Positions 50,786 to 64,000 of a DNA stretch of 64,000 nucleotides are shown in pieces (positions within the stretch are counted from its first letter, which is position 1; every line of letters starts with the position of its first letter). This DNA comes from Alteromonas macleodii (GTDB lineage Bacteria; Pseudomonadota; Gammaproteobacteria; Enterobacterales; Alteromonadaceae). The notes under the pieces were generated by a model, which made no database searches, was not told the origin of the DNA, and saw only the letters and a program-made list of their open reading frames with translations. The stretch spans positions 488,055-552,054 of the forward strand of contig NZ_LR812090.1 of the NCBI RefSeq assembly GCF_903772925.1. The letters run 5' to 3'. Both the position numbers and the translations under genes were made by a program.

Positions 50786-50888
50786 AAAAAACATTAGCAT
50801 AAAAGCTCAAATACGGCTTCTATGGACGGAGCGATGGGACGAAGTCTAATGTAGCGTGTCAGTTTACGAAGAAACTATTTTGTTAGGT
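50786..50888 (-). repeat. attC-like site, degenerate (most distal)
   Basis: Ends in GTTAGGT at 50882-50888; inner arms ACATTAG (50791) and CTAATGT (50846) are complementary. The outer left core is unclear. Marks the apparent end of the array. Confidence 0.45.
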
Positions 50889-51167
50889 GCTTGCATTTTC
50901 AGACCCACAGACAAATGTTTCTTGACCCAGATGGTAGACATTATTAATAGCTACGTATGTGCCGGAAACAACACCTGATATGGGGAGTAGTACAAGGCCA
51001 CTAATTGAATAAAAGGTATTGGTATCCTTAAATCCATTAATAACTTTTAGGGTTTTGCGATCCGATGATATCTCACACTTGTTCACTTTAGCCGTATCGG
51101 TTTCTGGAACGACTACACAAGCACTTAGCAAAGACACACTTAGAATTAAAAACGGGACTAATTTCAT
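50883..51167 (-). CDS. Cassette: small lipoprotein
   Basis: 94 residues from MKLVPFLILSVSLLSAC, a clean lipobox (LSAC). Start chosen at that Met rather than an upstream in-frame Met with no signal. The mature part has two further Cys (NKCEIS and FVCGSE) and a hydrophobic stretch LVLLPISGVVSGTYVAI. Family not recognised. Most distal cassette. Confidence 0.7.
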   Translation of the reverse strand: MKLVPFLILSVSLLSACVVVPETDTAKVNKCEISSDRKTLKVINGFKDTNTFYSISGLVLLPISGVVSGTYVAINNVYHLGQETFVCGSENAST

Positions 51168-51189
51168 AAAATAATTCCTTTTATCTTTC

Positions 51190-51255
51190 GTCACACAGAT
51201 TAGCACATATTTTCGCCTAGCCTACAAAGAGGGCGAACTAAGTTTTTTGTTATAC
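51190..51255 (-). repeat. attC-like site, short and degenerate
   Basis: Ends in GTTATAC (51249-51255) with a small internal hairpin TCGCC / GGCGA. The TAA of the membrane-protein cassette is part of this core. Confidence 0.5.
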
Positions 51256-51546
51256 GTGCATCATTGAGCCAACACATAAAAGTATAAAAGCGCAAAGAAA
51301 ATATTTACTACTAACTGGGTTGACGCTTACATTTTGTTTGAACCAAGCCTTCACTGGCATGGTTAACATGTACGGCGATGACAACAATCCGCCTAATAAA
51401 CATAAGACGCCCAATGTCATGGTGATAGAACCGAAGTTCAGTGTCTTAGTGTTTTGGTAAGCGACTGATTCTATAAGAATCACGGCTGCCATAGCTACTT
51501 TGATTAAAATTGCAGCCCTTTGGGCTTTAATTGCTTCGTATTCCAT
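51250..51546 (-). CDS. Cassette: small membrane protein
   Basis: 98 residues with three to four hydrophobic segments (AAILIKVAMAAVILIESVAY, ITMTLGVLCLLGGLL, YFLCAFILLCVGSMMHV). Stop codon lies in the attC core. No family recognised. Typical size and character for integron cassettes. Confidence 0.68.
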   Translation of the reverse strand: MEYEAIKAQRAAILIKVAMAAVILIESVAYQNTKTLNFGSITMTLGVLCLLGGLLSSPYMLTMPVKAWFKQNVSVNPVSSKYFLCAFILLCVGSMMHV

Positions 51547-51567
51547 TGCGAATAAATCCTAATAGTA

Positions 51568-51730
51568 CTTATAACATCCACTAAGGGGCAGTAATGTATA
51601 GATTGAAGATCAATTAACCATCTAACATAGTGCGATGAATTGAGATTATAGGATCTTCCATATACAGCTTATGCCCCGCCAGTATATTTCCCCTCTAGCG
51701 AAACGAGTGTGTTAATTAGCTCTTTAAGCA
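51568..51730 (-). repeat. attC-like site, long and degenerate
   Basis: Left end CTTATAACATCCACTAAGGG matches better-conserved sites; the right end reads GTTAATTAGCTCTTTAAGC, with a degraded core. About 160 bp. Confidence 0.5.
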
Positions 51731-52173
51731 TGTTCACCCATAACTTTCAGTTGCGATATGTCCATTACCCTCACATGCGTTTGGTAATAGTATTTACCAG
51801 TAGGTTTACCATCTGATAGCAATGCAATCTTAACCCGCTGAGCAATACCATTAACTACTATTGCTTTATTTATAAAGTATTCCTGTGGTGGCATTCCATA
51901 TCTAGCAGATAACTGTGCAATTACTTTCGGATGTAGAGTGACGGTTATAGCTCTCTGATCACGATAGTCTTTTTCAGTATTCAAATATACATATTGCCCT
52001 TGGCTACCAGTGGCTACTATTTGAAGTGAGTATTGCCCAGGAACACCTTTGGGCGCTGAATCTGCAGCAGCCTTTATTATTGCCATTGTGTCTGAGAATG
52101 TAGACTCAGTGTGTAAAGTTGTGGAAGTGCAACCAGCGAGTAAAAAGATAAACGTCAAAACAACAATTTTCAT
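51724..52173 (-). CDS. Cassette: lipoprotein of unknown function
   Basis: 149 residues; signal VVLTFIFLLAGC with a strong lipobox (LAGC). The mature part has GQYSLQIVATGSQGQYVYLN and HPKVIAQLSARYGMPPQEYFINKAI. No family recognised. Cassette on the array strand. Confidence 0.7.
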   Translation of the reverse strand: MKIVVLTFIFLLAGCTSTTLHTESTFSDTMAIIKAAADSAPKGVPGQYSLQIVATGSQGQYVYLNTEKDYRDQRAITVTLHPKVIAQLSARYGMPPQEYFINKAIVVNGIAQRVKIALLSDGKPTGKYYYQTHVRVMDISQLKVMGEHA

Positions 52174-52185
52174 AATTTATTTCCT

Positions 52186-52299
52186 TATAGCACCATACTA
52201 AAGGGTGATAGCATGTGGGCTAAAATAGGTAACGAAATGAGTAACCCATGAGTAAGCGTCCCAGCGAACGAAGTGAGTAACTTAATTTTCTTTGTTAGG
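52186..52299 (-). repeat. attC-like site
   Basis: Inner arms GCATGTGGGC and a diverged partner near AACCCATGAGT; GTCCCAGCGAACG and GAGTAACTTAA precede the core GTTAGGT at 52293-52299. Confidence 0.72.
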
Positions 52300-52313
52300 T
52301 GCCAGCACACTTT

Positions 52314-52751
52314 CTACTGCCGCCATAACTTTATTGTGCCTAATAAATAAAACGTACCATAAATACAGCATATAGTTGAGCTGACTAACCAAAAGGTTAT
52401 TGAATTTTGGTGCACCACAGGGTCTGAAGTTAGAAAGGGACCAACTAAACCTGCGATACCACGCAACAAATAGATGGCAGTAATTAAAGCTAAACAGGTT
52501 TTTAGTAGTGGTAATTTGATGATGATACCTGCACCAGAAAATGCATATAAGCCCCAGCCAGTAAGAATTGAAGCAATTACCAAAGTTGCAATTGTGGGGT
52601 AAGGGTCGCCCTGAGCTGCGAGTTGAGCCATGCGTTGACCAGCACCAAAAAAGAGATACCAATCAGGACCACCGAAAATACAACTGATATGAAGTAGTGC
52701 GGCTAAGAAGCTTAAAATACCAGCGATTAATAGTTGGTTATTCTTGTGCAT
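52314..52751 (-). CDS. Cassette: four-helix membrane protein
   Basis: 145 residues, four hydrophobic segments (~8-27, 50-72, 78-100, 115-140). The C-terminus is a positive KLWRQ. Resembles small uncharacterised integron membrane proteins with FGGPDWYLFFGAGQRMA. A second long frame on the same strand in another phase (52282-52662) is a shadow. Confidence 0.72.
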   Translation of the reverse strand: MHKNNQLLIAGILSFLAALLHISCIFGGPDWYLFFGAGQRMAQLAAQGDPYPTIATLVIASILTGWGLYAFSGAGIIIKLPLLKTCLALITAIYLLRGIAGLVGPFLTSDPVVHQNSITFWLVSSTICCIYGTFYLLGTIKLWRQ

Positions 52752-52766
52752 TCAAATTCCTTTTGG

Positions 52767-52825
52767 CACATAACATCGCCCGCAAAGGCGAGCACGTAGT
52801 ACGATTTTACTTGGCTTTGTTACAT
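52767..52825 (-). repeat. attC-like site, short
   Basis: ACATAAC at the left, hairpin TCGCCCGC / GGCGAGC next to it, core GTTACAT at 52819-52825. About 59 bp. Confidence 0.6.
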
Positions 52826-53401
52826 GTTTTCAAAAAATAACCTTATGTCTGCTTGCTTGGCCAACAATGAAATATTACTACGTTGATCCAGCGGGCAAAC
52901 GAAAAGCACTAAAACATCACTACTATCGTCTATTGCTAAAATAGCCAAATTTGCGGCACGAGCGCAAGTAAAAATATCGGGGCTATGCTCTACGCTACCA
53001 GCACCACCTACAAGTGAGCCAAATCCAAACTCAGTTTGTGCGTAGAAGTTTTTTAAGTCCTCATAGTGGGTACTTTTTTCTAGAAGGCCTTCGGATCGAA
53101 GATTCAATTTATCTAAGACTGATAACGGTTCTTCACGGCCATTGGCAACTGCCAACAGATTCGACTCATAAAGAGCACGGACTAGAACAAAGGTGGTTGA
53201 AATATCTGTGGGCGATTCTATAAAACAGTCGTCTTTTAAATCTTCATCAAGTGCCTCAAAATATCTGTTCGGCGAAGACTCAAAAAGCCGAACTTTTCTC
53301 ATCACCTCTGGGTTGTTCCGAGAAACGAGTTTCGACAAAGCCACTAAAGGCTGCTGATCCGATTTAGGGCCTCGTAACAATTTTTTTAAAAGCTCCCTCA
53401 T
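52820..53401 (-). CDS. Cassette: hypothetical 193-residue protein
   Basis: 193 residues, soluble, no signal. Basic N-terminus (LLKKLLRG), then helical segments and a C-terminal beta-rich part with DDSSDVLVLFVCPLDQRSNISLL. I do not recognise the family. The stop is inside the attC core (ATG TAA C), as in several cassettes here. Confidence 0.7.
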   Translation of the reverse strand: MRELLKKLLRGPKSDQQPLVALSKLVSRNNPEVMRKVRLFESSPNRYFEALDEDLKDDCFIESPTDISTTFVLVRALYESNLLAVANGREEPLSVLDKLNLRSEGLLEKSTHYEDLKNFYAQTEFGFGSLVGGAGSVEHSPDIFTCARAANLAILAIDDSSDVLVLFVCPLDQRSNISLLAKQADIRLFFENM

Positions 53402-53420
53402 CTGGTGTACCTCCTTGAGA

Positions 53421-53527
53421 TGTAACTTTTAAATAAGGGGCGCAGACGCGTGGGGCATAATGGCGAAGCAGCCCCGCGAGTATGCGTTTCAGCGAACGCA
53501 GTGAGTGAGTTGATTGGGGGGTTAGGC
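53421..53527 (-). repeat. attC-like site
   Basis: Left TGTAACTTTTAAATAAGGGG, arms GCGTGGGGC / GCCCCGCG, right half with CAGCGAACGCAGTGAG and core GTTAGGC. Member of the subtype also found at 56516 and 63342. Confidence 0.82.
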
Positions 53528-53983
53528 GTTTGAAGTATGCGCCGATTCGAGCTTGGCATAGTTACCTTTAAAGCTAAATGCTTCCTGAGTTTCTCCATTT
53601 TGCCTAAGGTGCTCCAATTTGGCCATGGCTTCTTGTACGGTTGGTATATGGCCTTCTGGAATCCACCACAACACATAAGATGCTTCGCCAAGCGGAATAA
53701 ACCATTCTTTTTTGCGCTTAAGAAAATCGATGTGATGCGTTTTAAACATGAAGTTTTTAAGCGACTCTACGCTTTCCCAGACCGACATATTTACGATGAT
53801 ATCTGGGTTGTTTTCTACTTCTATACTAGTGGCATCGCCTGTTTCATCTTTTAAGCGCCAAATAAAACCCGGACTCTTTTCTGCAATAGCATTAATAGGC
53901 TCTAAATTATTAACAAAGTCCGACATTTCCGGTGACTCTAGATCAAATCTTACTTTTGCAATATTAAGTTGAGCGAGGTGCAT
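53522..53983 (-). CDS. Cassette: DUF3291 protein
   Basis: 153 residues with the DUF3291 pattern: HLAQLNIAKVRFDLESPEMSDF, SPGFIWRLKDETGDATSI, NMSVWESVESLKNFMFKTHHIDFLKRKKEWF and YVLWWIPEGHIPTVQEAMAKLEHL. The fold is ABM-like. Function unknown; common in integron cassettes. Stop codon inside the attC core (GCC TAA C). Confidence 0.88.
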   Translation of the reverse strand: MHLAQLNIAKVRFDLESPEMSDFVNNLEPINAIAEKSPGFIWRLKDETGDATSIEVENNPDIIVNMSVWESVESLKNFMFKTHHIDFLKRKKEWFIPLGEASYVLWWIPEGHIPTVQEAMAKLEHLRQNGETQEAFSFKGNYAKLESAHTSNA

Positions 53984-54117
53984 TTAGTCTCCTTAACGCA
54001 TAACGATTTATTATGTCTCACTAGCAAAAAACTTCCTTGAACAGACTTAGAGTCGCACTAATCATTTAAGATGGCTACTACAAAGTGCTTTATAGCAAGC
54101 CCCGCATCTATTTCACA

Positions 54118-54243
54118 CTATGTCATAGTTCTGTTTTTTTCCTCATACAAAATTAGGGGAAAGATAGAGGTTGTTTCCTCAATGCTGTCTGATACCAGCC
54201 ATACAGAATAAGAAATCTGACCTTCAAAATTTTTCTGAGACAT
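54118..54243 (-). CDS. Possible 41-residue small ORF in a cassette gap
   Basis: ATG at 54243 directly after the zinc-ribbon cassette's stop, running 41 codons: MSQKNFEGQISYSVWLVSD and onward to TAG at 54118. There is no clear RBS of its own, so it may depend on read-through from the upstream gene. The ~125 bp between it and 53,990 hold nothing I can name. It could equally be a remnant of a larger cassette. Confidence 0.3.
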   Translation of the reverse strand: MSQKNFEGQISYSVWLVSDSIEETTSIFPLILYEEKNRTMT

Positions 54244-54247
54244 AACG

Positions 54248-54736
54248 CTAAGCGTCTTGTTTACTGCCCGTGTCAATTCGAAGCAGCTTTTCATCTTTTA
54301 TGTACCCTAATTGGAATAGTTCCATTGCAATTTGTTTAAGCTGTTTATTTTGCTTGGTGGTTCTGTTTTCCGTCTCTACAAGTAATTGATAGCGTTTTTG
54401 TAAGCTTTTGGTATTTCTTGAGTGCCTTCGGCAATCTGGGCATCGGTTGCAATGCGCATCTACATAAAAGCCCAACTGTTCAAACCAAAACATTTGCTCC
54501 TTGGCGAAAAAGATGAACGCTCTTTTACAAATGTTGCATGTTTCCTCAATATCTACGTAGATTTTACGCGGGTACAAACCGTAATTTTGCTTTGATATAT
54601 CAGCTTTTATAGCGGTTTCTTTGAAGATCTTAAGCGATGAGTAGCTCCAGTGAGCAGATAAAATATCTTCTTCAGAGTAGTTTTCGCCTGATGGGATAGG
54701 CTTATTTCCATATCTGGGGTGTTTTACATAATTCAT
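54248..54736 (-). CDS. Cassette: zinc-ribbon protein
   Basis: 162 residues. The segment CNICKRAFIFFAKEQMFWFEQLG followed by HCNRCPDCRRHSRNTKSL is the probable zinc-ribbon domain (zf_Tbcl type) with three CxxC pairs. A coiled-coil region follows (KRYQLLVETENRTTKQNKQLKQ). No complete attC follows this gene; only CATAACGCTAAGC directly beside the stop is attC-like. Confidence 0.78.
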   Translation of the reverse strand: MNYVKHPRYGNKPIPSGENYSEEDILSAHWSYSSLKIFKETAIKADISKQNYGLYPRKIYVDIEETCNICKRAFIFFAKEQMFWFEQLGFYVDAHCNRCPDCRRHSRNTKSLQKRYQLLVETENRTTKQNKQLKQIAMELFQLGYIKDEKLLRIDTGSKQDA

Positions 54737-54745
54737 TTGGATGAA

Positions 54746-54820
54746 AATAACCTCTGGCGGAGCCGCCCCGCATGTATGCGTCGCAGCGTGCCCGCGAGCG
54801 GCTTAATGTGATTGTTATAC
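54746..54820 (-). repeat. attC-like site, left side shortened
   Basis: GGCGGAGCCGCC hairpin, ATGCGTCGCAGCGTGCCCGC and core GTTATAC at 54814-54820. Only the proximal half of the usual site is present. Confidence 0.65.
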
Positions 54821-54842
54821 GCGCCTTTATACCGCCGCCAGA

Positions 54843-55102
54843 TTATAGGGGGTAGACATGTAAAGAACTTTGATATTGCCGCGTTTGCCATAAATCAAAA
54901 GCATTTTGCAAACGTAGCCAAAGGCCAGCTCCAAACGAAGAGCCATCTCTGGGGTGATAGCTCCTTTGCCATTAAGAACTTTTGACAGTGTTTTGCGGCT
55001 AACATCTAAATGCTGAGCTACGTCAGTGATAGTGAGTTCTAGAGCTTCAATAACAAGTTCTTTGAGTATCTAACCGGAATGTGCTGGGTTATGCTTATTC
55101 AT
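54843..55102 (-). pseudogene. higA: Broken higA antitoxin
   Basis: From ATG at 55102: MNKHNPAHSG, then TAG at codon 11 (55072-55070). After it the same frame continues ILKELVIEALELTITDVAQHL and KTLSKVLNGKGAITPEMALRLELAFG, the HigA XRE fold. There it shifts: a +1 frame resumes WLRLQNAFDLWQTRQYQ to a TAA near 54843. Two lesions (nonsense plus indel) in a 260 bp gene mean it is dead. The intact higA at 58519 serves as the comparison. Overlaps the end of the higB remnant as TAATG. Confidence 0.85.
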
Positions 55103-55221
55103 TAGTGATAACTCTCGTAGTTAACGATTTCGACATCTCGTCCGACAAAGCGATATGTAACTTTCCAGTTACCACTCACTCTGACAGACCAAATATCATT
55201 TCTGTTACCTTTGAGTTTATT
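55102..55221 (-). pseudogene. higB: 3' remnant of a higB toxin
   Basis: About 39 codons of HigB C-terminus: LNKLKGNRNDIWSVRVSGNW, then a strand ending NYESYH-TAA. The N-terminal half is gone; the sequence to the right is an attC core plus the relE stop. Compare the 58812 copy with QLKGERSNIWSISVNGNW. A deletion joined an attC start (TAACAACTCAAT) to the middle of higB. Confidence 0.82.
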
Positions 55222-55227
55222 GAGTTG

Positions 55228-55491
55228 TTAGGTACGTTTATAAACATCGGATCGATGCCCAATTTTTATCACCTGTACTACAAGCTCGGTTTCTCGGATT
55301 TCATAAATAATTCTATAAAAACCTTGCCGGATACGATACAAGTCGAGTTCACTAAGCTTAGTTGCCCTATCCCTTCGCGGGTTTTCAGCCAATAAGTCGA
55401 TTTTGGCGAGGATCTTTTTAACGTCCGACTTGGGAATTGCCCTAAAATCTTTGGCTACTGATTTCTTGAAAGTGACGCTATAATTTTCCGT
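55228..55491 (-). pseudogene. RelE-family toxin lacking a normal start codon
   Basis: An 87-codon open frame with clear RelE character: ENYSVTFKKSVAKDFRAIPK, KKILAKIDLLAENPRR, then LYRIRQGFYRIIYEIRETEL and a final HRSDVYKRT. The expected start codon at 55491 reads ACG; the frame offers only a CTG just before it and no ATG, GTG or TTG. The bases of that codon overlap the antitoxin's Asp codon (GAC), where GAT would restore ATG. The stop TAA forms part of an attC core (ACC TAA C). Confidence 0.75.
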
Positions 55492-55711
55492 CAGCTTCCA
55501 AACTGTTTAGCAAGTCCTCATAGGAAATTTCGGGCTCTTCGGCCCTTTGTCTTACCGCAGCCAAATCTTCTTGATCCTCTTTCATAAGGAGTTTTACTGC
55601 TTCATCAATCAGTTCTGATATTGAGGTGTCTGATGATGCTGCCCGCAGTTTCAAAGCATTATGAATTGCTGGTTCGAAGTAAACGGTTGATCGTTTTGAT
55701 AAAGTACTCAT
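55478..55711 (-). CDS. Ribbon-helix-helix (CopG-like) antitoxin of a RelE toxin
   Basis: 77 residues. RHH N-terminus SKRSTVYFEPAIHNALKLRAASSDTSISELIDEAVKLL and an acidic tail that would cover the toxin (EDLLNSLEADGKL). Overlaps the relE frame by 14 bases. A TATAAT box on the minus strand lies at 55743-55748, about 32 bases upstream of the ATG, within AT-rich repeats that could be the operator. If the toxin is not made, this is an orphan antitoxin. Confidence 0.86.
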   Translation of the reverse strand: MSTLSKRSTVYFEPAIHNALKLRAASSDTSISELIDEAVKLLMKEDQEDLAAVRQRAEEPEISYEDLLNSLEADGKL

Positions 55712-55786
55712 GAATAAGTCTCCATTTAAGTAACATTAAAACATTATAGCGTTAAAGTGTCAGTGGGGCTAATTTTTGCTCAAGAG

Positions 55787-55846
55787 TACCTAACTTTTAA
55801 ATGCGTCCCAGCGAACGTAGTGAGTATGTTGATTGAGTTGTTAGCT
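55787..55846 (-). repeat. attC-like site with internal deletion
   Basis: TACCTAACTTTTAAATGCGTCCCAG.. to core GTTAGCT at 55840-55846. Compared with 53421 and 56516, about 50 bp of the central stem is missing after TTTTAAAT. Confidence 0.65.
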
Positions 55847-55853
55847 GCAATCA

Positions 55854-56417: not shown

Positions 56418-56515
56418 ATTACTATTCCTTTGTTTAACAAAGCTCTATCGTAAGGGAATAGTCCTCATTTTTGTTACGACAAACACACGCCAGTGCGACG
56501 TCAGTAGTACGCCAA

Positions 56516-56625
56516 GCAGCTAACTTTTAAATAAGGGGCGCAGGCATGTGGGGCTTAATGGCGAACCCGTCCTGCATGTTTGCGACCCAGCCCGCGCAGC
56601 GGGCGAGCTTGATTTTTTGTTATGT
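56516..56625 (-). repeat. attC-like site
   Basis: GCAGCTAACTTTTAAATAAGGGG start, arms GGCATGTGGGGC and CCTGCATGTTTGC, core GTTATGT at 56619-56625. Same subtype as 53421. Confidence 0.8.
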
Positions 56626-56628
56626 TAC

Positions 56629-56976
56629 TTACCCAAAAAAACAAGCATATTCATCATGATCTATAATGGCAAAGACTTGCTCAATAGTTTTTACATACAT
56701 ATTCGGCTCATAGCCATGCCATTTTAGATCTTGTCGCATCCAGAAAATTTTCCATTTACCTTGAGTACGGATAAAAGTTGCTTTGGCCATATCTAAGTCA
56801 TGATATTCATTTGGGCTGTTCCAAATAGGACGTGTTTCATAGATATAAACTGATTGTTTCTCCAGCCGCCAACCAATATCTAACTCATTTCTAATATGCA
56901 CTGGTGGCCTACGCTTATTTAAAAACGCGTTGGCAGCTTTTTCTATCTTCTTTATTTCGAATTCACTTAAGGCCAT
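56629..56976 (-). CDS. Cassette: DUF3024 protein
   Basis: 115 residues: FEIKKIEKAANAFLNKRRPP, IRNELDIGWRLEKQSVYIYE, IWNSPNEYHDLDMAKATFIR and KIFWMRQDLKWHGYEP are the DUF3024 pattern. Function unknown; family common in Vibrio integrons. Stop TAA lies just before the attC. Confidence 0.86.
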   Translation of the reverse strand: MALSEFEIKKIEKAANAFLNKRRPPVHIRNELDIGWRLEKQSVYIYETRPIWNSPNEYHDLDMAKATFIRTQGKWKIFWMRQDLKWHGYEPNMYVKTIEQVFAIIDHDEYACFFG

Positions 56977-57000
56977 AAACGTTTAATTTTCCATCTGTCA

Positions 57001-57103
57001 CATAACACCCGCATAACGGGCTAGAATACCAAGCGAAGGGAAGGGAGCCTACGTGTTTTTGTCCCAAGAAGCGCCAGCGACCGAGTTAATGCGTTTGTTA
57101 GTT
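57001..57103 (-). repeat. attC-like site
   Basis: CATAACACCCGCATAACGGG, then GGGAGCCTACGTGTTTTTGTCCC and core GTTAGTT at 57097-57103. It follows the cassette on its right, whose genes run on the other strand. Confidence 0.78.
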
Positions 57104-57160: not shown

Positions 57161-57445
57161 ATGGATACCCGTATTCAGTTTAGAGTAGATGAAGAAACTA
57201 AACGGCTAGCTCAGATAATGGCCGAAAGCCAAGGACGCACTCTAAGTGACGCTTGTAGAGAGCTTACGGAAGAACTCGCTGAACAGCAACGAAAAATAAT
57301 TACTCATGATCGGTGGCTTACTGAAGAGGTTAATGCTGCGTTCAGTAAATTAGAGAGTGGGAAAAGTAAGTTTGTCAGTCATGAAGAAGCGAACTTGGAC
57401 ATGGAAGCTCGAAAAATGAAAATTAGGAATAAAGCCAAAAAATGA
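57161..57445 (+). CDS. RelB/DinJ-type antitoxin, inverted cassette
   Basis: 94 residues from the ATG at 57161, which has AAGGAG eight bases upstream; a longer frame starts within the attC and is not used. RHH start MDTRIQFRVDEETKRLAQIMAESQGRTLSDACREL with a basic tail (RKMKIRNKAKK). Overlaps the toxin by four bases (ATGA). The cassette is inverted with respect to the array, so it needs its own promoter; TTGCCG and TAACAT lie upstream, 18 bases apart. Confidence 0.87.
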   Translation: MDTRIQFRVDEETKRLAQIMAESQGRTLSDACRELTEELAEQQRKIITHDRWLTEEVNAAFSKLESGKSKFVSHEEANLDMEARKMKIRNKAKK

Positions 57446-57723
57446 TCTTATGGGAAAAAAGTTCGTTGGACGACCGTGAGGCTATTTTCGAGTTTTTATA
57501 CGAATTTAACCCATTAGCAGCAGAAAAAACTGACGCATTAATTGAGAAGAAAGTTGAAAAGTTGAGCCAGCAACCTCTTATGGGAGTGGAGAGAGAGGGT
57601 ATACCGGGAAGACTGTTAATAACTCCAGAGGTTTCAATGATCGTTTCATATTTCATAAAAGACGACATTATTCACATTCTTCGAGTTTTACACCAGAAGC
57701 AAAAATTTCCTGTAGGCAACTAA
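57442..57723 (+). CDS. RelE/ParE-family toxin, inverted cassette
   Basis: 93 residues: ILWEKSSLDDREAIFEFLYE, then AEKTDALIEKKVEKLSQQPLMG, GIPGRLLITPEVSMIVSYFI and HILRVLHQKQKFP. RelE/ParE fold with the usual helical N-terminus and C-terminal strands. Intact and translationally coupled to the antitoxin. May inhibit gyrase or cleave mRNA; not decided by sequence. Confidence 0.87.
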   Translation: MILWEKSSLDDREAIFEFLYEFNPLAAEKTDALIEKKVEKLSQQPLMGVEREGIPGRLLITPEVSMIVSYFIKDDIIHILRVLHQKQKFPVGN

Positions 57724-57833
57724 CTCCCGCATAACGGGCAAAAATACGTAGGCTAGAATACCAAGCTAAGCGCAGGGAGCCTACGTGTTTTTGTCCCTAG
57801 CGAGCGCAGCGAGTGTTAATGCGCTTGTTATGC
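57717..57833 (-). repeat. attC-like site
   Basis: ATACGTAGGCT and AGCCTACGTGTTTTTGTCCC are the complementary arms; core GTTATGC at 57827-57833, with GAGTGTTAATGCGC before it. Confidence 0.85.
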
Positions 57834-57845
57834 GCAATTTGCCAC

Positions 57846-57868: not shown

Positions 57869-57895
57869 TGTTTATGAACTGACTGGAGATATATT

Positions 57896-58117
57896 ATGGC
57901 AACCGCGAGCGTAAGACTAGACCAAGATCTAGTTGAGAAAGCTACCATTATGGGCAAAGCACTAAATCGAACTATGCCAAAACAGATTGAGCATTGGGCA
58001 AAAATAGGTGAAATGATGGAAGATAATCCTGATTTACCATACGAATTCGTGAAACAGGCAATTATTTCCAAAGCGGAAAAAGAGGCAGGAAAATTGGAGC
58101 CTTACGATTTTGGCTAA
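57896..58117 (+). CDS. ParD-like antitoxin, inverted cassette
   Basis: 73 residues: TASVRLDQDLVEKATIMGKA, TMPKQIEHWAKIGEMMEDNP. The ParD_like family pairs with RelE-type toxins. GGAGA lies eight bases before the ATG. Preceded by an inverted-repeat operator, and its stop overlaps the toxin start by eight bases. Runs against the array polarity. Confidence 0.86.
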   Translation: MATASVRLDQDLVEKATIMGKALNRTMPKQIEHWAKIGEMMEDNPDLPYEFVKQAIISKAEKEAGKLEPYDFG

Positions 58118-58400
58118 GATTACGAGTGTTTTACAGACAGCCAATTTTAAAAGAGCAGTAAAGAAGTTACATAAGAATCAGAAAAAAGACTTGGATAAAG
58201 CTGTAAAGGAACTGATGGACGATCCTCTTTTAGGAGAACAGAAAAAAGGCGAGCTAGCTTTTCTTCGCGTGTACAAGTTCAAGATGGTTAAGCAGTTAAC
58301 CTTACTAGGTTACAGCTACGAGGATGGCACTATGATACTTGAATTAATAGCTCTTGGTTCTCATGAAAACTTTTACCGCGATGTTAAAAAGTTATTCTGA
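58110..58400 (+). CDS. RelE-family toxin, inverted cassette
   Basis: 96 residues from a TTG start overlapping the antitoxin. ITSVLQTANFKRAVKKLHKN, KDLDKAVKELMDDPLLGEQK, FLRVYKFKMVKQLTLLGYSY and ALGSHENFYRDVKK are the standard RelE pattern. Complete. The TTG start may keep toxin translation low relative to antitoxin. Confidence 0.86.
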   Translation: MAKITSVLQTANFKRAVKKLHKNQKKDLDKAVKELMDDPLLGEQKKGELAFLRVYKFKMVKQLTLLGYSYEDGTMILELIALGSHENFYRDVKKLF

Positions 58401-58407
58401 CCGGATG

Positions 58408-58524
58408 CGTATAACACCCACATAAGGGGCAGTAATACGTGGGCTAAAATTAGGAACGAAGTGACACAGCCGCCATATTTGTGTCCCAGCGAGCGGAGCG
58501 AGTGACTTAATTTTTTTGTTAGGC
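58408..58524 (-). repeat. attC-like site
   Basis: GCGTATAACACCCACATAAGGGG, arms TACGTGGGC / a diverged GCCGCCATATTTGTG, then GTCCCAGCGAGCGG and core GTTAGGC at 58518-58524. Confidence 0.82.
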
Positions 58525-58812
58525 GGCATGCAGATCTATTGGCTGTACGTTATCCAAGTTGATGTTTTGCTTTGCCTGCCAGAGTTCATAGTTGTCTTGC
58601 ATACTAAGCCAACTTTCAGGGCTGCGCCCTAATACCTTTGATAGCCTTAATGCCATTTCTGGCGTTACTGCACTTTTCCCCTTAACGACGCGATTGAGTG
58701 TAGAAGCGGCAACACCAAGATGTGTCGAAAGTGTCCGGCAACTTATGCCGTGTGGCTCCATGTAAATGGACTCAATAAATTCACCGGGATGTGGTGGGTT
58801 ATGCATATTCAT
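58519..58812 (-). CDS. higA: HigA-family antitoxin
   Basis: 97 residues with the HigA pattern MNMHNPPHPGEFIESIYMEP, HLGVAASTLNRVVKGKSAVTPEMALRLSKVLG and WLSMQDNYELWQAKQN. XRE fold; binds and represses its own promoter with HigB. Complete, stop codon inside the attC core (GCC TAA C). Its toxin lacks its N-terminus, so this is probably an orphan antitoxin. Coupled to that toxin remnant as TAATG. Confidence 0.9.
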   Translation of the reverse strand: MNMHNPPHPGEFIESIYMEPHGISCRTLSTHLGVAASTLNRVVKGKSAVTPEMALRLSKVLGRSPESWLSMQDNYELWQAKQNINLDNVQPIDLHAA

Positions 58813-59018
58813 TAGTGATAATCCTCGTAATTTAAGATGTAAGCATTACCATCCGTGAACTCGAAAGTTACTCTCCAATTACCGTTAACTGATATCGACC
58901 AAATATTTGACCTTTCTCCTTTAAGTTGGTGAAGAGAAAATCCGGGCAAATTAATGTCATCGATATCTTGTGCGGTATGGATAGCAGCTAACTGCATGCG
59001 AAGTTTTTTCGCATGCAT
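58812..59018 (-). pseudogene. higB: N-terminally truncated HigB toxin
   Basis: 68 codons: MHAKKLRMQLAAIHTAQDID and SVNGNWRVTFEFTDGNAYIL with the closing YEDYH. HigB is normally about 92 residues; the first ~24 are missing. The break lies at the shared GCATGCG / ATGCAT with the parE gene to its right. No RBS precedes this ATG. Overlaps the end of parE by 31 bases in another frame. Confidence 0.82.
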
Positions 59019-59272
59019 AATCTGTATACCACACTAATTTCCCTGTTTTCGATAATTTTATAAATAATAGAGTATGGGAACCTGCTTAAGACAAAGCGTC
59101 GATGAGTTTGCCCCATTTGTGTCCATGCCGATGGCAAAGAGCTAACTGAATCGATGGCTTCCTTGAGTTCTTGAGTAAATTCGTGACCCAACCCCAATGA
59201 CTGTTCTTGATACCAATCAAACGACTCTTTTATTTCCCTTTTAACCTCTGGGTGAAAGGAAACAGGCAGCAT
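58988..59272 (-). CDS. ParE/RelE toxin with foreign C-terminus
   Basis: 94 residues: PVSFHPEVKREIKESFDWYQ, GLGHEFTQELKEAIDSVSSL, RRFVLSRFPYSIIYKIIENR. The usual ending after EISVV (AVMHT..RRKP in relatives as I know them) is replaced by YRLCMRKNFACS, which is higB DNA read in another frame. The core fold is nearly whole, so activity may remain. It starts three bases after its antitoxin. Confidence 0.8.
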   Translation of the reverse strand: MLPVSFHPEVKREIKESFDWYQEQSLGLGHEFTQELKEAIDSVSSLPSAWTQMGQTHRRFVLSRFPYSIIYKIIENREISVVYRLCMRKNFACS

Positions 59273-59275
59273 CTT

Positions 59276-59476
59276 TTAATTAAGATCCTTTTCTATCTCG
59301 TCCCAATTAATGCTTTTTACCGCACCAGACTCCAGCTCTGCGCTGCAAGATTCTGCAAGTTTTAACCACTCGGACTCCACATCGCTATCAATCTTGGTAT
59401 CCATAGCCGTTAAAAGACAGTGGGCAGCAAGTGCTTTCTCTTTAGTACTGAGTTGCTCGATATTTTCAAGCATCAC
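59276..59476 (-). CDS. Addiction-module antitoxin (CHP02574-type)
   Basis: 66 residues: NIEQLSTKEKALAAHCLLTAM, ESEWLKLAESCSAELESGAV and the closing SINWDEIEKDL are the pattern of short antitoxins paired with ParE/RelE toxins. The ATG follows an attC remnant by a few bases. Coupled to the toxin. Confidence 0.82.
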   Translation of the reverse strand: MMLENIEQLSTKEKALAAHCLLTAMDTKIDSDVESEWLKLAESCSAELESGAVKSINWDEIEKDLN

Positions 59477-59496
59477 TCTTAAATGCTTTGTTATGC
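59477..59496 (-). repeat. attC remnant
   Basis: Only CTCTTAAATGCTTTGTTATGC survives between the antitoxin start and the DUF1349 stop, that is the first ~20 bases of a site on the minus strand (GCATAACAAAGCATTTAAGAG). Confidence 0.55.
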
Positions 59497-59500
59497 TAAT

Positions 59501-60133
59501 TTAGACCGCATGAGCAAGCCACGTGCAAGGCTCTAAGCTCATATCGGTAAAAAAAGCTGTGAACGACGAATCTAATGGGCTGCACGCATATACACCAAAA
59601 TTTACTACCGAGTTTGCTGGCATTGGTGGGTTGCATTTACCCATTTCAGCCGTTGTTTCGCCAAGCTTATGTAGATGGAAAATACGCATTTGCTTAAAAG
59701 TAACACCGTCCAAGGATGATTCAATTAAGAAGTCCGGCCCTCTTCGACTTAACCGATACCAAATTTCATTTGGAAGCGGAATATCTGAAGTTGCCCAATC
59801 TGAGTAACCTAGGTTGGTTACAACACTACCCAATCGTGAAAACTCACTATTTTCGTACTCAATAGAAGCTTTAAACCAGTTTTCATTATCTAGGTAGATA
59901 ATTAATCCACATTGATCAAATTGAGCTTGATAATCGAAGCTTACTTTAGTTGTAAATGTGAAATTTTCACCAGATTCAATTTGTAATGCTGGCGCATTAT
60001 CATTACGGAAACCGTAGTATGAACGTTGCCAAAAATCAGTACTTGGCTCGGTTGTGATTGAGACTGATTTTTCACTCACTTCACTGACTTTCGGCTCAAA
60101 TATCCACTTACCAACTGTAAAATCTACCATCAT
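59501..60133 (-). CDS. Cassette: DUF1349 (concanavalin A-like) protein
   Basis: 210 residues. TTEPSTDFWQRSYYGFRNDN, VSFDYQAQFDQCGLIIYLDN, NWFKASIEYEN, LGYSDWATSDIPLP, and DFLIESSLDGVTFKQMRIFHL are the DUF1349 pattern, a jelly-roll fold that may bind sugars. No signal peptide. Starts at one of two adjacent Met codons. Its attC is reduced to a remnant. Confidence 0.86.
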   Translation of the reverse strand: MMVDFTVGKWIFEPKVSEVSEKSVSITTEPSTDFWQRSYYGFRNDNAPALQIESGENFTFTTKVSFDYQAQFDQCGLIIYLDNENWFKASIEYENSEFSRLGSVVTNLGYSDWATSDIPLPNEIWYRLSRRGPDFLIESSLDGVTFKQMRIFHLHKLGETTAEMGKCNPPMPANSVVNFGVYACSPLDSSFTAFFTDMSLEPCTWLAHAV

Positions 60134-60169
60134 TACTCTCTTATTAATTGCACTGAACTTACTGGATTC

Positions 60170-60274
60170 ACATAACGCTAAGCTAACGGGCAGTGACGTG
60201 GCGGCATAATCGCGAAGCGCCGCCGCGTTACTGTCCCAGTGAACGGAGTAAACGAGTTTAGCGCTTTGTTATAC
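60170..60274 (-). repeat. attC-like site
   Basis: CATAACGCTAAGCTAACGGG, arms GTGACGTGGCGGC / GCCGCCGCGTTAC, GTCCCAGTGAACGG, and core GTTATAC at 60268-60274. Confidence 0.85.
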
Positions 60275-60277
60275 ACA

Positions 60278-61117
60278 TCACTTCTCGGTGGTTGGTAAGA
60301 GAACCTTTAAACCTTCATACCATGCCAAGAATGCAACCGTTCCATGAGTTTCGTTTTCGAAATATTGCTGCTTACCTATTTTCTGAACATCTTTGATGAT
60401 AGAAGACGCGAAGGACGTTCCTCACTTATAGTTTGTGAGTCCAATTTCTCCAATGTGAGAATTATTCGCAAAGGCAAAATACACATTGAAACCATAGTCC
60501 TGAGGCTTGTTCATATTACTATATGTGCGATTTAGATAATTATCATCCCAGAGCGCCGTTGGGTCTATGATTAGATAATCTGTAAACAACGAGGAATAAT
60601 TAAGAAGCGTGTTTGCGGCGAACAAACCGCCAAAAGATTCGCCTACCAACACTCGCTTGCCAGAAGTCCTATATATTTGCTCAATTTGTGGGATTAGCTC
60701 TGTTTCCAGAAACTCTTGAAATTGTGAAGCGTTTCCCGTCTCTGAAAATGTATCCAAGACACGATCTTTGAACACCCATTCTTTTAGCTTTGATGGGGTT
60801 AAATCTCTTGGTCTATTTGTATTTGGGACCGCAATAACAATCGCTTCTTGTACCTGATTTCCCAAAGTGTCAGTGCTTAATGATTCCAATACACCCACGA
60901 AACCTTTAAACCGATGCACATCTCCGTCTAATAGGTAAATGACCGGGTACACTTCTGAAACAGCGTCGTAAGACGGTGGGAGATAGACCATATAAGGCCT
61001 TTCTTCTTCCATGACATTCGATGTTAATGAAGTTGAAATCCCTAACTTGATTACTTCTGAAGCAAGAGTATTTGCAGTGAACATACAAGCCATAATCACT
61101 GACACTAATTTATTCAT
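60278..61117 (-). pseudogene. Exported alpha/beta-hydrolase (esterase D-like), interrupted by TGA
   Basis: 280 codons in one frame from ATG at 61117, with a signal peptide (LVSVIMACMFTANTLA). DGDVHRFKGF and the nucleophile LVGESFGGLFAANTLL are present. A TGA at 60424-60422 cuts the frame after LTNYK (231 residues). Beyond it the same frame goes on GTSFASSIIKDVQKIGKQQY and FENETHGTVAFLAWYEGLK, which contains the expected catalytic His, and ends just before attC. The cut product lacks that His and should be inactive. Confidence 0.83.
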
Positions 61118-61133
61118 ACTAACTTCCTTGATG

Positions 61134-61234
61134 TGTATAATGCCCCAAGAAGGGGCAATAACACGTAGGCTATAATAGGGAACGAAGTGACGGAAGCCTA
61201 CGTGTTAGTGTCCCGCTTACTTGGTTTGTTATGC
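61134..61234 (-). repeat. attC-like site
   Basis: GTATAATGCCCCAAGAAGGGG, arms AACACGTAGGCT / AGCCTACGTGTT (perfect), core GTTATGC at 61228-61234. Confidence 0.87.
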
Positions 61235-61702
61235 GCTAAGTTCCAAGCTAAAAAAGGGACGTTCACCTTCGTATCTATCAATATTTGCCCCAATGCGAAT
61301 GTAGAAGTCTATTCCACGCTTATTGTTTGGGCTAGCTGTCCACGCAATATGTGACGCATTAATTAGGTTTGCTTCTAGCTGTAGTGCTTTCATTAATTCT
61401 TGTCCAACGCCTTTTGAACGATTGGACGAAATAACTAATAAGTCGTCAAGCCAGATAGAAGGCTGACCTTTAAATGACGAGTACCTGAAATGATAAAGAG
61501 CAAATCCAATTACTCTATTATTGCTCTCTGCTAACAACACAGCAGCAAATGGAGTAGATGAAGTGATAGTGTTTTTTATAGCTGTAACGTCAGTACTAAT
61601 TTCACCATCAAAACCTTTCATGCTTCTATCGAATTCAGCTTTCTGTTGTATTAGCGCAAGAATAATCTCCTCGTCGCCAGGTTTTCCTTTCCGAATAATC
61701 AT
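61229..61702 (-). CDS. Cassette: GNAT acetyltransferase
   Basis: 157 residues: IIRKGKPGDEEIILALIQQK, FALYHFRYSSFKGQPSIWLDD, and the CoA loop ISSNRSKGVGQELMKALQLE. Resembles diamine-acetyltransferase-like GNATs. Stop codon inside the attC core (GCA TAA C). Substrate unknown. Confidence 0.88.
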   Translation of the reverse strand: MIIRKGKPGDEEIILALIQQKAEFDRSMKGFDGEISTDVTAIKNTITSSTPFAAVLLAESNNRVIGFALYHFRYSSFKGQPSIWLDDLLVISSNRSKGVGQELMKALQLEANLINASHIAWTASPNNKRGIDFYIRIGANIDRYEGERPFFSLELSA

Positions 61703-61716
61703 AAATTCTCAAATTG

Positions 61717-61832
61717 ACGCATAACGCTAAGCTTTGGGGCGCTAGCACGTGGGCTAAAATCCGAGCGAAGCGGCAGAGCCCATGTGTTACTGTCCCAGCG
61801 AGCCTGCGAGCGGCTTAATGTGATTGTTATGC
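61717..61832 (-). repeat. attC-like site
   Basis: GACGCATAACGCTAAGC, arms GCACGTGGGCT / AGCCCATGTGTTAC, GTCCCAGCGAGC and core GTTATGC at 61826-61832. Confidence 0.87.
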
Positions 61833-61836
61833 GCTA

Positions 61837-61884
61837 TTGACTTACAACGCGCAAGTACCATAATTAGGTATATATTGGTACTTG
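61837..61884 (+). promoter_or_regulatory. Promoter and operator of the parDE cassette
   Basis: TTGACT at 61837, 16 bases, CATAAT at 61859. A perfect inverted repeat CAAGTACCA (61852-61860) and TGGTACTTG (61876-61884) brackets the -10 and probably binds ParD. Confidence 0.75.
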
Positions 61885-61894
61885 GAGAAATCAG

Positions 61895-62137
61895 ATGGCT
61901 AAAAACACCAGCATTACCCTTGGAGACCATTTTGATGGCTTTATTGCTAGCCAAATTCAAACTGGTCGGTATGGTTCAGCAAGTGAGGTGATTCGTTCAG
62001 CTCTTCGCTTACTAGAAACACAGGAAACCAAATTAAACACTCTGCGTCAATTACTTGTAGCAGGTGAAGAAAGCGGTGAAGCTGAATACGACCTTGAGCA
62101 TCTGATATCAGAACTAGACGGTGAATTAAAAGAGTGA
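61895..62137 (+). CDS. parD: ParD antitoxin, inverted cassette
   Basis: 80 residues: RHH start KNTSITLGDHFDGFIASQIQ, YGSASEVIRSALRLLE, acidic end EYDLEHLISELDGELKE. Classical ParD. TTGGAGA precedes the ATG, and an operator palindrome lies just upstream. ATGA overlap with parE. Confidence 0.93.
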   Translation: MAKNTSITLGDHFDGFIASQIQTGRYGSASEVIRSALRLLETQETKLNTLRQLLVAGEESGEAEYDLEHLISELDGELKE

Positions 62138-62436
62138 AACCGTTTAAATTAACCGTACTAGCAAAATCAGATCTAAAAGATATCGCATTGTTTACGCAAC
62201 GGAAATGGGGCCGAGAACAGCGTAATGTATATCTTAAACAATTCGACGATTCATTTTGGATGTTGTCTGAAAATCCTGACATTGGTAAAAGCTGCGACGA
62301 AATAAGAGATGGATACAGAAAATTTCCTCAAGGTAGCCATGTGATTTTCTACAAACAAACGGGCAGTCAGGAAATTCTGATCATAAGAATCCTTCATAAA
62401 AGTATGGATGTAAATCCTGTACGCTTTGGCGCATAA
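62134..62436 (+). CDS. parE: ParE toxin, inverted cassette
   Basis: 100 residues: FKLTVLAKSDLKDIALFTQR, NVYLKQFDDSFWMLSENPDI and GYRKFPQGSHVIFYKQTGSQ with final RILHKSMDVNP. ParE poisons DNA gyrase. Complete; the end lies within the following attC. Runs against array polarity with its own promoter. Confidence 0.93.
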   Translation: MKPFKLTVLAKSDLKDIALFTQRKWGREQRNVYLKQFDDSFWMLSENPDIGKSCDEIRDGYRKFPQGSHVIFYKQTGSQEILIIRILHKSMDVNPVRFGA

Positions 62437-62544
62437 CTTCCACATAAGGGGCAGTAACACATGGGCTAAAATAGAAACGAAGTGACGCAGCCTATGTGTT
62501 AGCGTCCTAGCGAGCTTGCGAGCGATTTAATGCGTTTGTTATAA
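62431..62544 (-). repeat. attC-like site
   Basis: GCATAACTTCCACATAAGGGG, arms GTAACACATGGGCT / AGCCTATGTGTTA, core GTTATAA at 62538-62544. On the minus strand the site reads TTATAACAAACGC at its start, very close to Vibrio VCR. Confidence 0.88.
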
Positions 62545-62946
62545 GCCGCCCCGCTCCCAAGCTAAAATTGATTTCGCTACTGGTTTAAAACCCGCCCGAC
62601 GACAAAACTGCGAAGCTGAGTCTGTACTTAAAGTGAACTTGTTTACTGCAGACAACTCTGGCGCATCAAGTAATGCCGTTAACAATGAACTACCAATTCC
62701 CGTATTCCGCAGACCATCTGAGGTAAAGAAGTCCATGATGTATGCATGAGTACAATAGTCTGTTACTACCCTTGCAAATGCAACCTGACGTCCCTTTGAA
62801 TAGGCTGCAATACAAAACGAGTTTTGGATAGTGTTAACCACTGTTTCTAAGGAACGGCCTTTCGCCCAATACGACTCTTGAGACAAGAAACGATGAATTA
62901 ACTCAACATCGAGCTTCGTTTTATCAGATAAGATTTCAATTTCCAT
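62539..62946 (-). CDS. Cassette: GNAT acetyltransferase
   Basis: 135 residues: LDVELIHRFLSQESYWAKGR, RQVAFARVVTDYCTHAYIMD, CoA loop LRNTGIGSSLLTALLDAPEL and CRRAGFKPVAKSILAWERGG. The YjgM-like pattern. Stop codon inside the attC core (TTA TAA C). Substrate unknown. Confidence 0.88.
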   Translation of the reverse strand: MEIEILSDKTKLDVELIHRFLSQESYWAKGRSLETVVNTIQNSFCIAAYSKGRQVAFARVVTDYCTHAYIMDFFTSDGLRNTGIGSSLLTALLDAPELSAVNKFTLSTDSASQFCRRAGFKPVAKSILAWERGGL

Positions 62947-62964
62947 AACTCAGCTCTGGTAAGG

Positions 62965-63020
62965 CTTATAACATTAAGCTAAGCGGCGCAGTTGCGTGCG
63001 ACATAATTTTTTTGTTATGC
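62965..63020 (-). repeat. attC-like site, short
   Basis: CTTATAACATTAAGCTAAGCGG, a weak central stem and core GTTATGC at 63014-63020; about 56 bp. Confidence 0.65.
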
Positions 63021-63314
63021 CTTAACTGTTGAAGTAGAAACGTCAGTTGTTTTAACTAGTGCAATACGATAACCGTTGAAGCTTTTCGCTAGGACCCGTT
63101 TTAGTGCAAAGATTGCAAAAAACACACCGATAAGCCCACCTGTCAACTGTGTAATAAAGGCCATAGTTGTTGCATCTATATTTGTCGCCTGACCTGAAAT
63201 ACCGACTATGAAGCCAAACAGGAAAGCAACCGGCAATGTATACGCCATAGAGCGCCAAAACCAACTCCACCATATCCTTAATGCTTTGGTCCATGTAACT
63301 GTTAATTCTTCCAT
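63015..63314 (-). CDS. Cassette: small membrane protein
   Basis: 99 residues from MEELTVTWTKALRIW with GGAGAAA upstream. Two to three hydrophobic segments (MAYTLPVAFLFGFIVGISG, FITQLTGGLIGVFFAIFALK). Stop in the attC core (GCA TAA C). Family not recognised, though similar small proteins occur in Vibrio cassettes. Its ATG overlaps the read-through end of the upstream GNAT frame (TAATG). Confidence 0.75.
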   Translation of the reverse strand: MEELTVTWTKALRIWWSWFWRSMAYTLPVAFLFGFIVGISGQATNIDATTMAFITQLTGGLIGVFFAIFALKRVLAKSFNGYRIALVKTTDVSTSTVKA

Positions 63315-63913
63315 TATTTTCTCCTTGTTAAACTCGATGGGGCATAACTTTCCAATAACGGGCGCAGACATGTGGGGCATAATGGCGTAGCCGCCCCGCG
63401 TGTATGCGTCCCAGCGAACGCAGTGAGTGTGTTGATTGGGTTGTTATGCATTAGTTTTAATGTAAAAAAAAAAGCGTCGATCATTTTGCCAGACTTTTCT
63501 ACCCTACATTTTTTGTTAACCTTAAATCCGCATTTTTCGAGAACTCGCAGTGAACCAATGTTTTCTGCTGCTACTTTTGCAGCAACTTTCGGAGTGGTTG
63601 GGAATATTGTACTGTCTAGTAAACTAGACACTGCAGTGGTCGCGATTCCTTTACCCCAAAAAGATTTGCCTATCCAATAGCCCACTTCGGTAGTCAGTGA
63701 ATCTAAATGCCAATATGAAATGCAACCAACTAGTTTGTTTTCTATTTCTATGGCGAGTGGTTTTCGAAGAGAATTTTCTTGTTTTTTTAGCCAAGAAATC
63801 GCGTCGTTTTCTGTGTATGGAAAAGGAATGTGAGAGGTCCACTTTGAAACATCAGCATCGTTCAACAATGCGACTATATTTGATGAATCTTCCAAATTAA
63901 ACTCTCTAAACAT
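63314..63913 (-). CDS. Cassette: GNAT acetyltransferase (RimJ/RimL-like) reading through its attC
   Basis: Starts at MFREFNLEDSSNIVALLND. TEVGYWIGKSFWGKGIATTA and ENIGSLRVLEKCGFKVNKKC are RimJ/RimL motifs. The natural end should be near 63444, in the attC core as for its neighbours. As given, a run of ten T (63464-63473, A on the plus strand) leaves the frame one base off. It then reads through the whole attC (from NNPINTLTAFAGTH..) for about 45 residues to a TAA overlapping the next gene's ATG. With one more T the protein would be 156 residues ending YIKTNA. Confidence 0.78.
   Translation of the reverse strand: MFREFNLEDSSNIVALLNDADVSKWTSHIPFPYTENDAISWLKKQENSLRKPLAIEIENKLVGCISYWHLDSLTTEVGYWIGKSFWGKGIATTAVSSLLDSTIFPTTPKVAAKVAAENIGSLRVLEKCGFKVNKKCRVEKSGKMIDAFFFTLKLMHNNPINTLTAFAGTHTRGAATPLCPTCLRPLLESYAPSSLTRRK
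63342..63449 (-). repeat. attC-like site
   Basis: GCATAACTTTCCAATAACGGG, arms GACATGTGGGGC / GCCCCGCGTGTATG, GTCCCAGCGAACGCAGTGAG and core GTTATGC at 63443-63449. Confidence 0.87.
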
Positions 63914-63934
63914 ACCTTTAAATCCTATAAAGAT

Positions 63935-64000
63935 GCATAACATTAAGCTAAGGGGCGCAGGTACGTGGGGCATAATGGCGAAGCCGCCCCGCGTAAATGC
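63935..64000 (-). repeat. attC-like site, cut by window edge
   Basis: GCATAACATTAAGCTAAGGGG, arms GTACGTGGGGC and the beginning of GCCCCGCGT; the rest, including the core, is outside the window. Confidence 0.75.

Follow-up and report, generated by a model that had tools for sequence, protein, structure and literature searches.

The right end of a 64,000-nucleotide stretch of the Alteromonas macleodii chromosome (the window, C1:488055-552054 of a single-contig genome of 4,665,060 bases) is the distal, and in all likelihood older, part of a complete chromosomal integron. The array of attC sites and gene cassettes continues for approximately 13 kb beyond the window to an attI-like junction, an intact integrase gene (intI) and then fadA. 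We consider it highly probable that this is a complete sedentary chromosomal integron at the fadA locus whose recombinogenic strands lie on the lagging-strand template. Integrons of this kind are already known in Alteromonas; what departs from a published rule, on good evidence, is the orientation, and the functional step from it is one that we infer. The stability of integrons has been explained by their orientation to replication in work on Vibrio and Xanthomonas, and Alteromonas, a marine bacterium not known to be a pathogen, provides a natural test of that explanation.

Extent of the integron and its attC sites

The whole array, about 25 to 26 kb, lies at 0.54-0.57 Mb of the chromosome, and the part nearest intI is in the adjoining stretch L009 (C1:552000-568500). 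Three features mark its proximal end:

near C1:565261 (L009:13262): attI-like GTTAGGT junction before the first cassette
C1:565517-566497, + strand: intI (TIGR02249, 437.6 bits, cut-off 265)
C1:566573-567736, - strand: thiolase gene by Pfam, which we take to be fadA

The intI frame is uninterrupted (326 amino acids), aligns over its full length with the solved IntI4 (PDB 2a3v, 7e-110) and is 98% identical to that of Alteromonas marina AD001. A sequence-only reading of the window had proposed a chromosomal integron of at least 13 kb in an Alteromonas-like genome and had suggested looking for intI. The integrase found outside the window, the junction, the 40 strong attC sites and the exact cassette units described below bear out the chromosomal integron, the identity of intI to the A. 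marina gene bears out the genus, and the length of the array bears out the size.

Sites were detected with R1, a covariance model of the palindromes trained on 20 sites; these took in 14 of the 28 sites in L009 and 6 of the 11 complete sites in the window, whose scores are therefore partly by construction, while 5 of the 11 were absent from the training set. In the window R1 found the 11 complete sites at 57.8-106 bits and one more cut by the window end (63935 on, 44.9 bits). With filters off, it also matched three shortened sites (54745, 55788 and 62966; 19.9-24.5 bits, E at most 5.5e-4) and four weak ones (50849, 51198, 52768 and 55155; 9.4-15 bits, E 0.03-2.7). A + strand match at 63623 (9.3 bits, E 2.7), comparable in score to the weak sites, was excluded because it is located inside a gene. 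As a negative control, R1 was run on window positions 1-50000, where nothing reached E<=1; a more permissive scan of 40000-50000 (filters off, E<=10) yielded two hits, neither above 9.2 bits. The strand given below is the cassette (top) strand, and R1 matches the opposite one:

50849..50888, -: weakest, most distal attC-like remnant (R1 9.4 bits, E 2.7; not significant alone)
51198..51255, -: weak attC remnant (10.4 bits, E 1.1; not significant alone)
52185..52300, -: attC (66.4 bits; outside training set)
52768..52825, -: weak attC remnant (11.1 bits, E 0.66; not significant alone)
53420..53527, -: attC (74.9 bits; outside training set)
54745..54820, -: shortened attC (21.9 bits)
55155..55233, -: weak attC remnant (15.0 bits, E 0.03)
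55788..55846, -: shortened attC (24.5 bits)
56518..56625, -: attC (77.6 bits; outside training set)
57000..57103, -: attC (57.8 bits; outside training set)
57718..57833, -: attC (96.5 bits)
58409..58524, -: attC (106 bits)
60170..60274, -: attC (89.4 bits)
61135..61234, -: attC (78.3 bits; outside training set)
61719..61832, -: attC (92.6 bits)
62431..62544, -: attC (103.9 bits)
62966..63020, -: shortened attC (19.9 bits)
63342..63449, -: attC (101.9 bits)
63935..64000, -: attC cut by window end (44.9 bits)

Outside the window, 28 more sites of at least 58.6 bits extend through L009 up to C1:564783; together with the 12 strong ones in the window they bring the sites that reach 44 bits to 40, the three short and four weak ones not included. 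The nineteen sites counted in the sequence-only reading agree in number with the 19 that we list in the window, the pairing of the two lists being our own choice, but just 15 are significant. All 40 strong sites match the model on the + strand, and 14 minus-strand matches of at most 29.4 bits overlap them. Elsewhere in the genome, attC clusters without an integrase (each site at least 30 bits) comprise 17 sites at C1:2491753-2506044 (in L154, C1:2490000-2507000), 4 at 2745177-2748366 and a single site at 2278053, L155 and L156 being the remaining integrase-less regions. These numbers are lower bounds; 150 of 1174 candidates were scored, so further sites may exist.

The fold expected of attC, which had been read from the complementary arms, is supported by covariation. 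The sites have the R''/L''/L'/R' layout with conserved AAC/GTT ends. In the alignment 94.4% of cells were paired, a share that dropped to 81.1% on shuffling and to no more than 52.6% on sliding, and 19 of 34 pairs had changed on both sides; the R''/R' pairing is partly by construction, since most training sites were chosen for complementary ends. Among 38 complete sites of 100-116 bp that were folded (one site with an N was left out), the + strand gave the more stable fold in 36. Rfam at gathering scores found no attC family in the window, its sole match being a tRNA, and sub-gathering matches in L009 at a low threshold (Rubella_3, mir-610 and STnc320) were judged to be chance.

Site quality declines away from the integrase. 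The R1 score drops with distance from intI (Spearman -0.42, p 0.008, 39 sites). Of the 38 folded sites, the ten farthest from intI include 2 in which the four-base R-box stem pairs with a probability of at least 0.5, and the other 28 include 16. Together these trends point to the window as the older part of the array.

With its position kept in relatives and its long array of 40 attC sites, the element is a sedentary chromosomal integron. It does not have the character of a mobile (class 1-5) integron, being chromosomal and holding no named drug-resistance family among 48 cassette-region proteins; transposon linkage was not searched for.

Orientation to replication, here and in relatives

A cassette ends with its attC. 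A unit without an open reading frame (ORF) is present in six copies in the array (L009:309-740, 5724-6155, 9139-9570, 10535-10949, 10939-11370 and 11360-11791), and on the minus strand its exact limits are G|TTATAAGGCGTC at the start and CTTAATG|TTA at the end; the bases outside vary except where copies are adjacent. On the minus strand the body of this unit precedes its attC, which makes that strand the top one and the + strand of the window the attC bottom strand.

The direction of replication was taken from dnaA (C1:1358), a dif-like site with one mismatch (C1:2362743) and GC skew (right half of the chromosome, 11/11 samples positive; left half, 7/9 negative; some values near zero). At the position of the array the fork would run rightward, which makes the + strand the lagging-strand template; the attC bottom strands thus appear to lie on that template, with intI transcribed along the fork. 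Judged from these landmarks, the single site and the 17-site cluster likewise have a lagging orientation and the 4-site cluster a leading one. Some 2 kb from the dif-like site lies a tyrosine recombinase gene (C1:2364590-2365192), possibly part of an element using dif.

In published chromosomal integrons the attC bottom strands lie on the leading-strand template in 25 of 30 cases, and always in Vibrio (PMC5371416), a tendency rather than a strict criterion and one that this array does not follow. The five exceptions are Xanthomonas integrons with at most 22 cassettes (PMC5371416; PMC8946536). In the literature searched, which was partial and did not include Data Set S1 of PMC5371416, we found no report on the replication orientation of an Alteromonas integron.

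At E<=1e-60, an intI relative is present in 56 of the 59 genomes available for the genus and in 212 of the 295 for the family. Orientation was determined for 14 of 16 Alteromonas genomes tried; G259 had no intI and G068 only a 42% relative with a stop. In 11 of the 14, intI adjoins fadA, a locus common to several other Alteromonas species, and all 11 are lagging (G000, G261, G272, G276, G264, G282, G262, G149, G256, G292 and G024; G264 had no dif match and its terminus was taken as the antipode). Strong attC sites keep the same polarity to intI in these genomes, and intI is free of stops in 10 of the 11, G264 having two. In the fadA class the sites that reach 30 bits (44 bits in our genome, given first) number 40, 38, 22, 29, 6, 18, 16, 8, 9, 22 and 27. 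Four arrays thus exceed 22 sites, or three at 50 bits; these counts come from R1 and the published 22 from another method (IntegronFinder). The three genomes with intI elsewhere (G280, G278 and G253, the last on a contig that is less than a whole chromosome) are leading, all within approximately 0.35 Mb of dif.

Outside the genus the leading orientation prevails, with 17 of 25 integrases against 8 that are lagging; when integrases closer than 0.45 Mb to the assumed terminus or 0.1 Mb to dnaA are removed, the split is 7 to 3. The family thus contains both orientations, and against it the consistently lagging fadA class is conspicuous (Fisher p 1.5e-4 for the full set, in which genomes are not independent). 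These 25 integrases came from 24 of 25 genomes drawn from the matches listed, single-contig genomes with weaker matches falling outside; excluded were G113, whose dif is on a different contig, a third intI in G163 and further secondary matches. The terminus was placed by a dif-like site in 6 of the 24 genomes and at the antipode of the origin in the other 18, with attC polarity left unchecked.

The region before intI differs among these genomes. A perfect CTGT-N8-ACAG, which we take to be the LexA-type box of the SOS literature, precedes intI in G292, G282, G262 and G149, and G024 has a 7/8 match. Our genome and G261 have a 7/8 match about 80 nucleotides before the start, G276 matches at 6 positions, and G272, G264 and G256 at 5 or fewer. 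The perfect boxes (L136, L138, L141 and L145) precede a divergent intI class at the fadA locus that is 58-61% identical to our own. In G149 and G024 (L141 and L147 compared to L009) fadA is 99% identical and intI just 58%, as if intI had been replaced in place. A promoter-like match, TTGAGT-17-TATTAT, lies at L009:13396-13368; the region holds 2 such matches against a shuffle mean of 6.3.

IntI is known to fold and cut attC bottom-strand hairpins and to move cassettes to attI. The IntI encoded to the right of the window would accordingly act on the attC bottom strand, which is the window + strand, and deliver cassettes to attI. New cassettes would then enter at the right, beside intI, leaving the oldest and partly decayed end in the window. 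Excision and insertion by IntI are indirectly supported by the exact cassette units. By extension from Vibrio work, the lagging orientation would raise attC folding and excision and may add to the fast cassette turnover reported in Alteromonas; it thus offers a testable reason for the hypervariability reported for the Alteromonas integron.

We propose tentatively, and with slightly less than even confidence, that a large working integron is kept at fadA, in an orientation deleterious in V. cholerae, by selection for turnover or by a mechanism of tolerance. Weak intI expression, limits on attC folding and retention by toxin-antitoxin cassettes may be such mechanisms. If the proposal is true, the rule that large arrays need their bottom strands on the leading-strand template is not general. 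Arrays of as many as 40 sites have the opposite orientation in several Alteromonas species, with or without SOS-type boxes before intI.

Several observations weigh against the main explanation, a sedentary integron whose lagging orientation raises folding and excision. Within the array, where genes lie mostly on the minus strand, the skew is positive in only 1 of 4 windows of 4 kb, compared to 10 of 12 to its left. The 11 lagging genomes share one ancestral position and so represent one event, not eleven. Among 80 named intI loci of mixed genera, a convergent fadA lies within 600 bases in 3 and at 1.1-2.5 kb in 3 more (of these six, five bear the title Alteromonas and the other Salinimonas; the contig of Alteromonas marina is too short there to judge), and the fadA locus thus belongs to part of the group. 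Only 18 of 38 sites have a + strand R-box pairing probability of 0.5 or more, so that many may fold poorly despite their orientation, and the decay trend is not significant when confined to the 19 sites that R1 was not trained on (p 0.14). No perfect LexA-type box was found before our own intI, and its 7/8 match, kept in G261, is not kept in G272 or G276; intI may therefore be little expressed.

The shared locus and orientation in 11/11 genomes, the absence of a perfect SOS-type box and the weak R-box pairing speak for a rival reading, in which the orientation is an accident of a single ancestral insertion at fadA, without consequence because intI is nearly silent or attC folds too poorly. This alternative has considerable standing, although we think it somewhat more doubtful than true. 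It has to contend with the perfect boxes before intI in four other fadA-locus genomes and with cassettes that nearly all differ between integrons of nearly identical intI. With a cassette defined as the interval between strong sites (40) and the repeated family of six left out, 4 of the 34 cassettes compared are common with G261 (intI 99% identical) and 3 of 34 with G272 (98%); both are different species, and hence this sharing gives no turnover rate. Strains of Alteromonas only 87 single-nucleotide polymorphisms apart are reported to carry different cassettes (PMC4119200).

That the array is a dead relic, no longer recombining, is improbable: distal sites are indeed shortened or very weak, but intI is stop-free over its full length, the proximal attC sites are strong and cassette content differs among close relatives. 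The palindromes are dispersed between small genes as repetitive extragenic palindromic sequences or miniature inverted-repeat transposable elements would be, but the adjoining intI, the exact cassette units ending G|TTA and the same structure beside intI in relatives leave almost no room for that reading.

Cassette contents

Cassette-region proteins (48) were picked by eye from ORF lists, and 25 passed the Pfam cut-off, 22 of 28 in the window and 3 of 20 near intI. Six toxin-antitoxin pairs lie between 55.2 and 62.4 kb of the window, three of them coded against the array direction, and Pfam found no such pair among the 20 proteins near intI. Toxin-antitoxin cassettes in the old part of the array would penalise their own loss. 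The assigned cassettes of the window are:

55228..55711, -: ParE toxin (N-terminal part outside the frame) and ribbon-helix-helix (RHH) antitoxin (Pfam PF05016, PF20605)
56629..56976, -: DUF3024 (Pfam), candidate defence model PDC-S43 (PADLOC 1.4e-48, the strongest PADLOC match)
57161..57723, +: RelB-like antitoxin (below cut-off) and ParE (Pfam), against array direction; also in the G024 array
57896..58400, +: ParD-like and ParE-like (Pfam PF11903, PF15781), against array direction; also in the G272, G276 and G149 arrays
58519..59018, -: HigB/HigA pair (Pfam PF05015, PF01381; NCBIfam HigA family matched by 1 of the 48 proteins)
58988..59476, -: Unstab_antitox and ParE-family toxin (Pfam PF09720, PF05016)
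59501..60133, -: DUF1349 (Pfam)
60422..61117, -: putative esterase (Pfam PF00756)
61229..61702, -: GNAT acetyltransferase (Pfam)
61895..62436, +: ParD/ParE (Pfam PF03693, PF05016), against array direction; also in the G261 and G149 arrays
62539..62946, -: GNAT acetyltransferase (Pfam)

Consistent with the sequence-only reading, which saw no known resistance gene, no named drug-resistance family was matched in NCBIfam by the 48 proteins at E<=1e-5; the nearest resistance-type match was an acetyltransferase named for arsenic resistance (2.4e-6). To the left of the last attC remnant, a run of small minus-strand genes (window 48686-50800; GNAT, TonB C-terminal and others) possibly represents cassettes with decayed attC.

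The ORF-less cassette present in six copies has a seventh in the second cluster of the genome. Several Alteromonas carry it in their arrays, and so do two A. macleodii plasmids (171 bits), where no annotated gene lies beneath it in a gene table that is incomplete. It was rejected as a gene, with at least two stops in each of the six frames across 23 distinct copies and no codon periodicity (59/55/65 variable columns); a role as a promoter cassette was not supported, promoter-like matches in L009:10900-13600 being fewer than in shuffles. Its consensus folding energy is -41.2 compared to -19.8 (sd 4.3) in column shuffles; the reverse strand folds too (-32.9). In a 14-pair stem three pairs have changed on both sides, each in 10 of the 23 copies, which may reflect few events. 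The covarying stem makes this a candidate non-coding cassette RNA. A wide distribution found no support. Across the class it was found in 2 of 369 sampled genomes, both Alteromonas (stricter filters, 8 candidates per genome); in 100 mixed-genera loci all 17 matches were in Alteromonas; and in a family search (3 candidates per genome) it was found in 8 of 246, of which 6 were of the same genus and 2 of other genera, one match being just 32 bases. A second recurrent cassette without an obvious ORF (L009:8180-8485) is 84-89% identical in G261, G272, G024 and one integrase-less cluster of our genome.

Comparison with known integrons

In 2014 Lopez-Perez described Alteromonas integrons (fGI-2/fGI-3, PMC4119200) in which intI, attC and toxin-antitoxin cassettes occupy three regions of the chromosome. 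Such integrons are treated also in PMC4223743 and mentioned in PMC5864184, and an attC model for Alteromonadales exists (PMC8352920). The novelty for this group suggested in the sequence-only reading therefore falls. Three array regions (here plus one single site), toxin-antitoxin cassettes and variable content are common to fGI-2/fGI-3 and this genome, whereas attC is given there as 55-87 bp compared to the 100-116 bp found here, and the passages on these islands available to us are silent on orientation to replication (PMC4119200).

The proposed likeness to Vibrio cholerae repeats (VCRs) is only loosely supported, the core words resembling those of VCRs. Among the 17 loci scanned with R1, a Pseudoalteromonas locus reached 107 bits and a Glaciecola locus 80 bits; of two Vibrionaceae loci, neither a V. 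cholerae VCR, L026 matched weakly twice, at 51.7 and 31.2 bits, and L053 had no match at E<=1e-5. In the Vibrio superintegron, as in this array, intI and the cassettes point in opposite directions and the attC sites are long and homogeneous. The superintegron is likewise large and carries toxin-antitoxin cassettes (PMC11023631), but Vibrio bottom strands lie on the leading template (PMC5371416) and those here on the lagging one.

The five exceptional Xanthomonas integrons share the lagging-strand arrangement with this array (PMC5371416, PMC8946536). They differ in their cassette number of at most 22 and an often inactivated integrase, compared to up to 40 sites here, with site-finding that differs, and an intI that is stop-free in 10 of 11 genomes. 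The same strand arrangement to the fork as here is obtained when the V. cholerae integron is inverted, which raises excision and costs growth (PMC11023631). That inversion was laboratory-made, costly and quickly lost with the integrase expressed (PMC11023631), whereas the arrangement in Alteromonas is natural and common across species.

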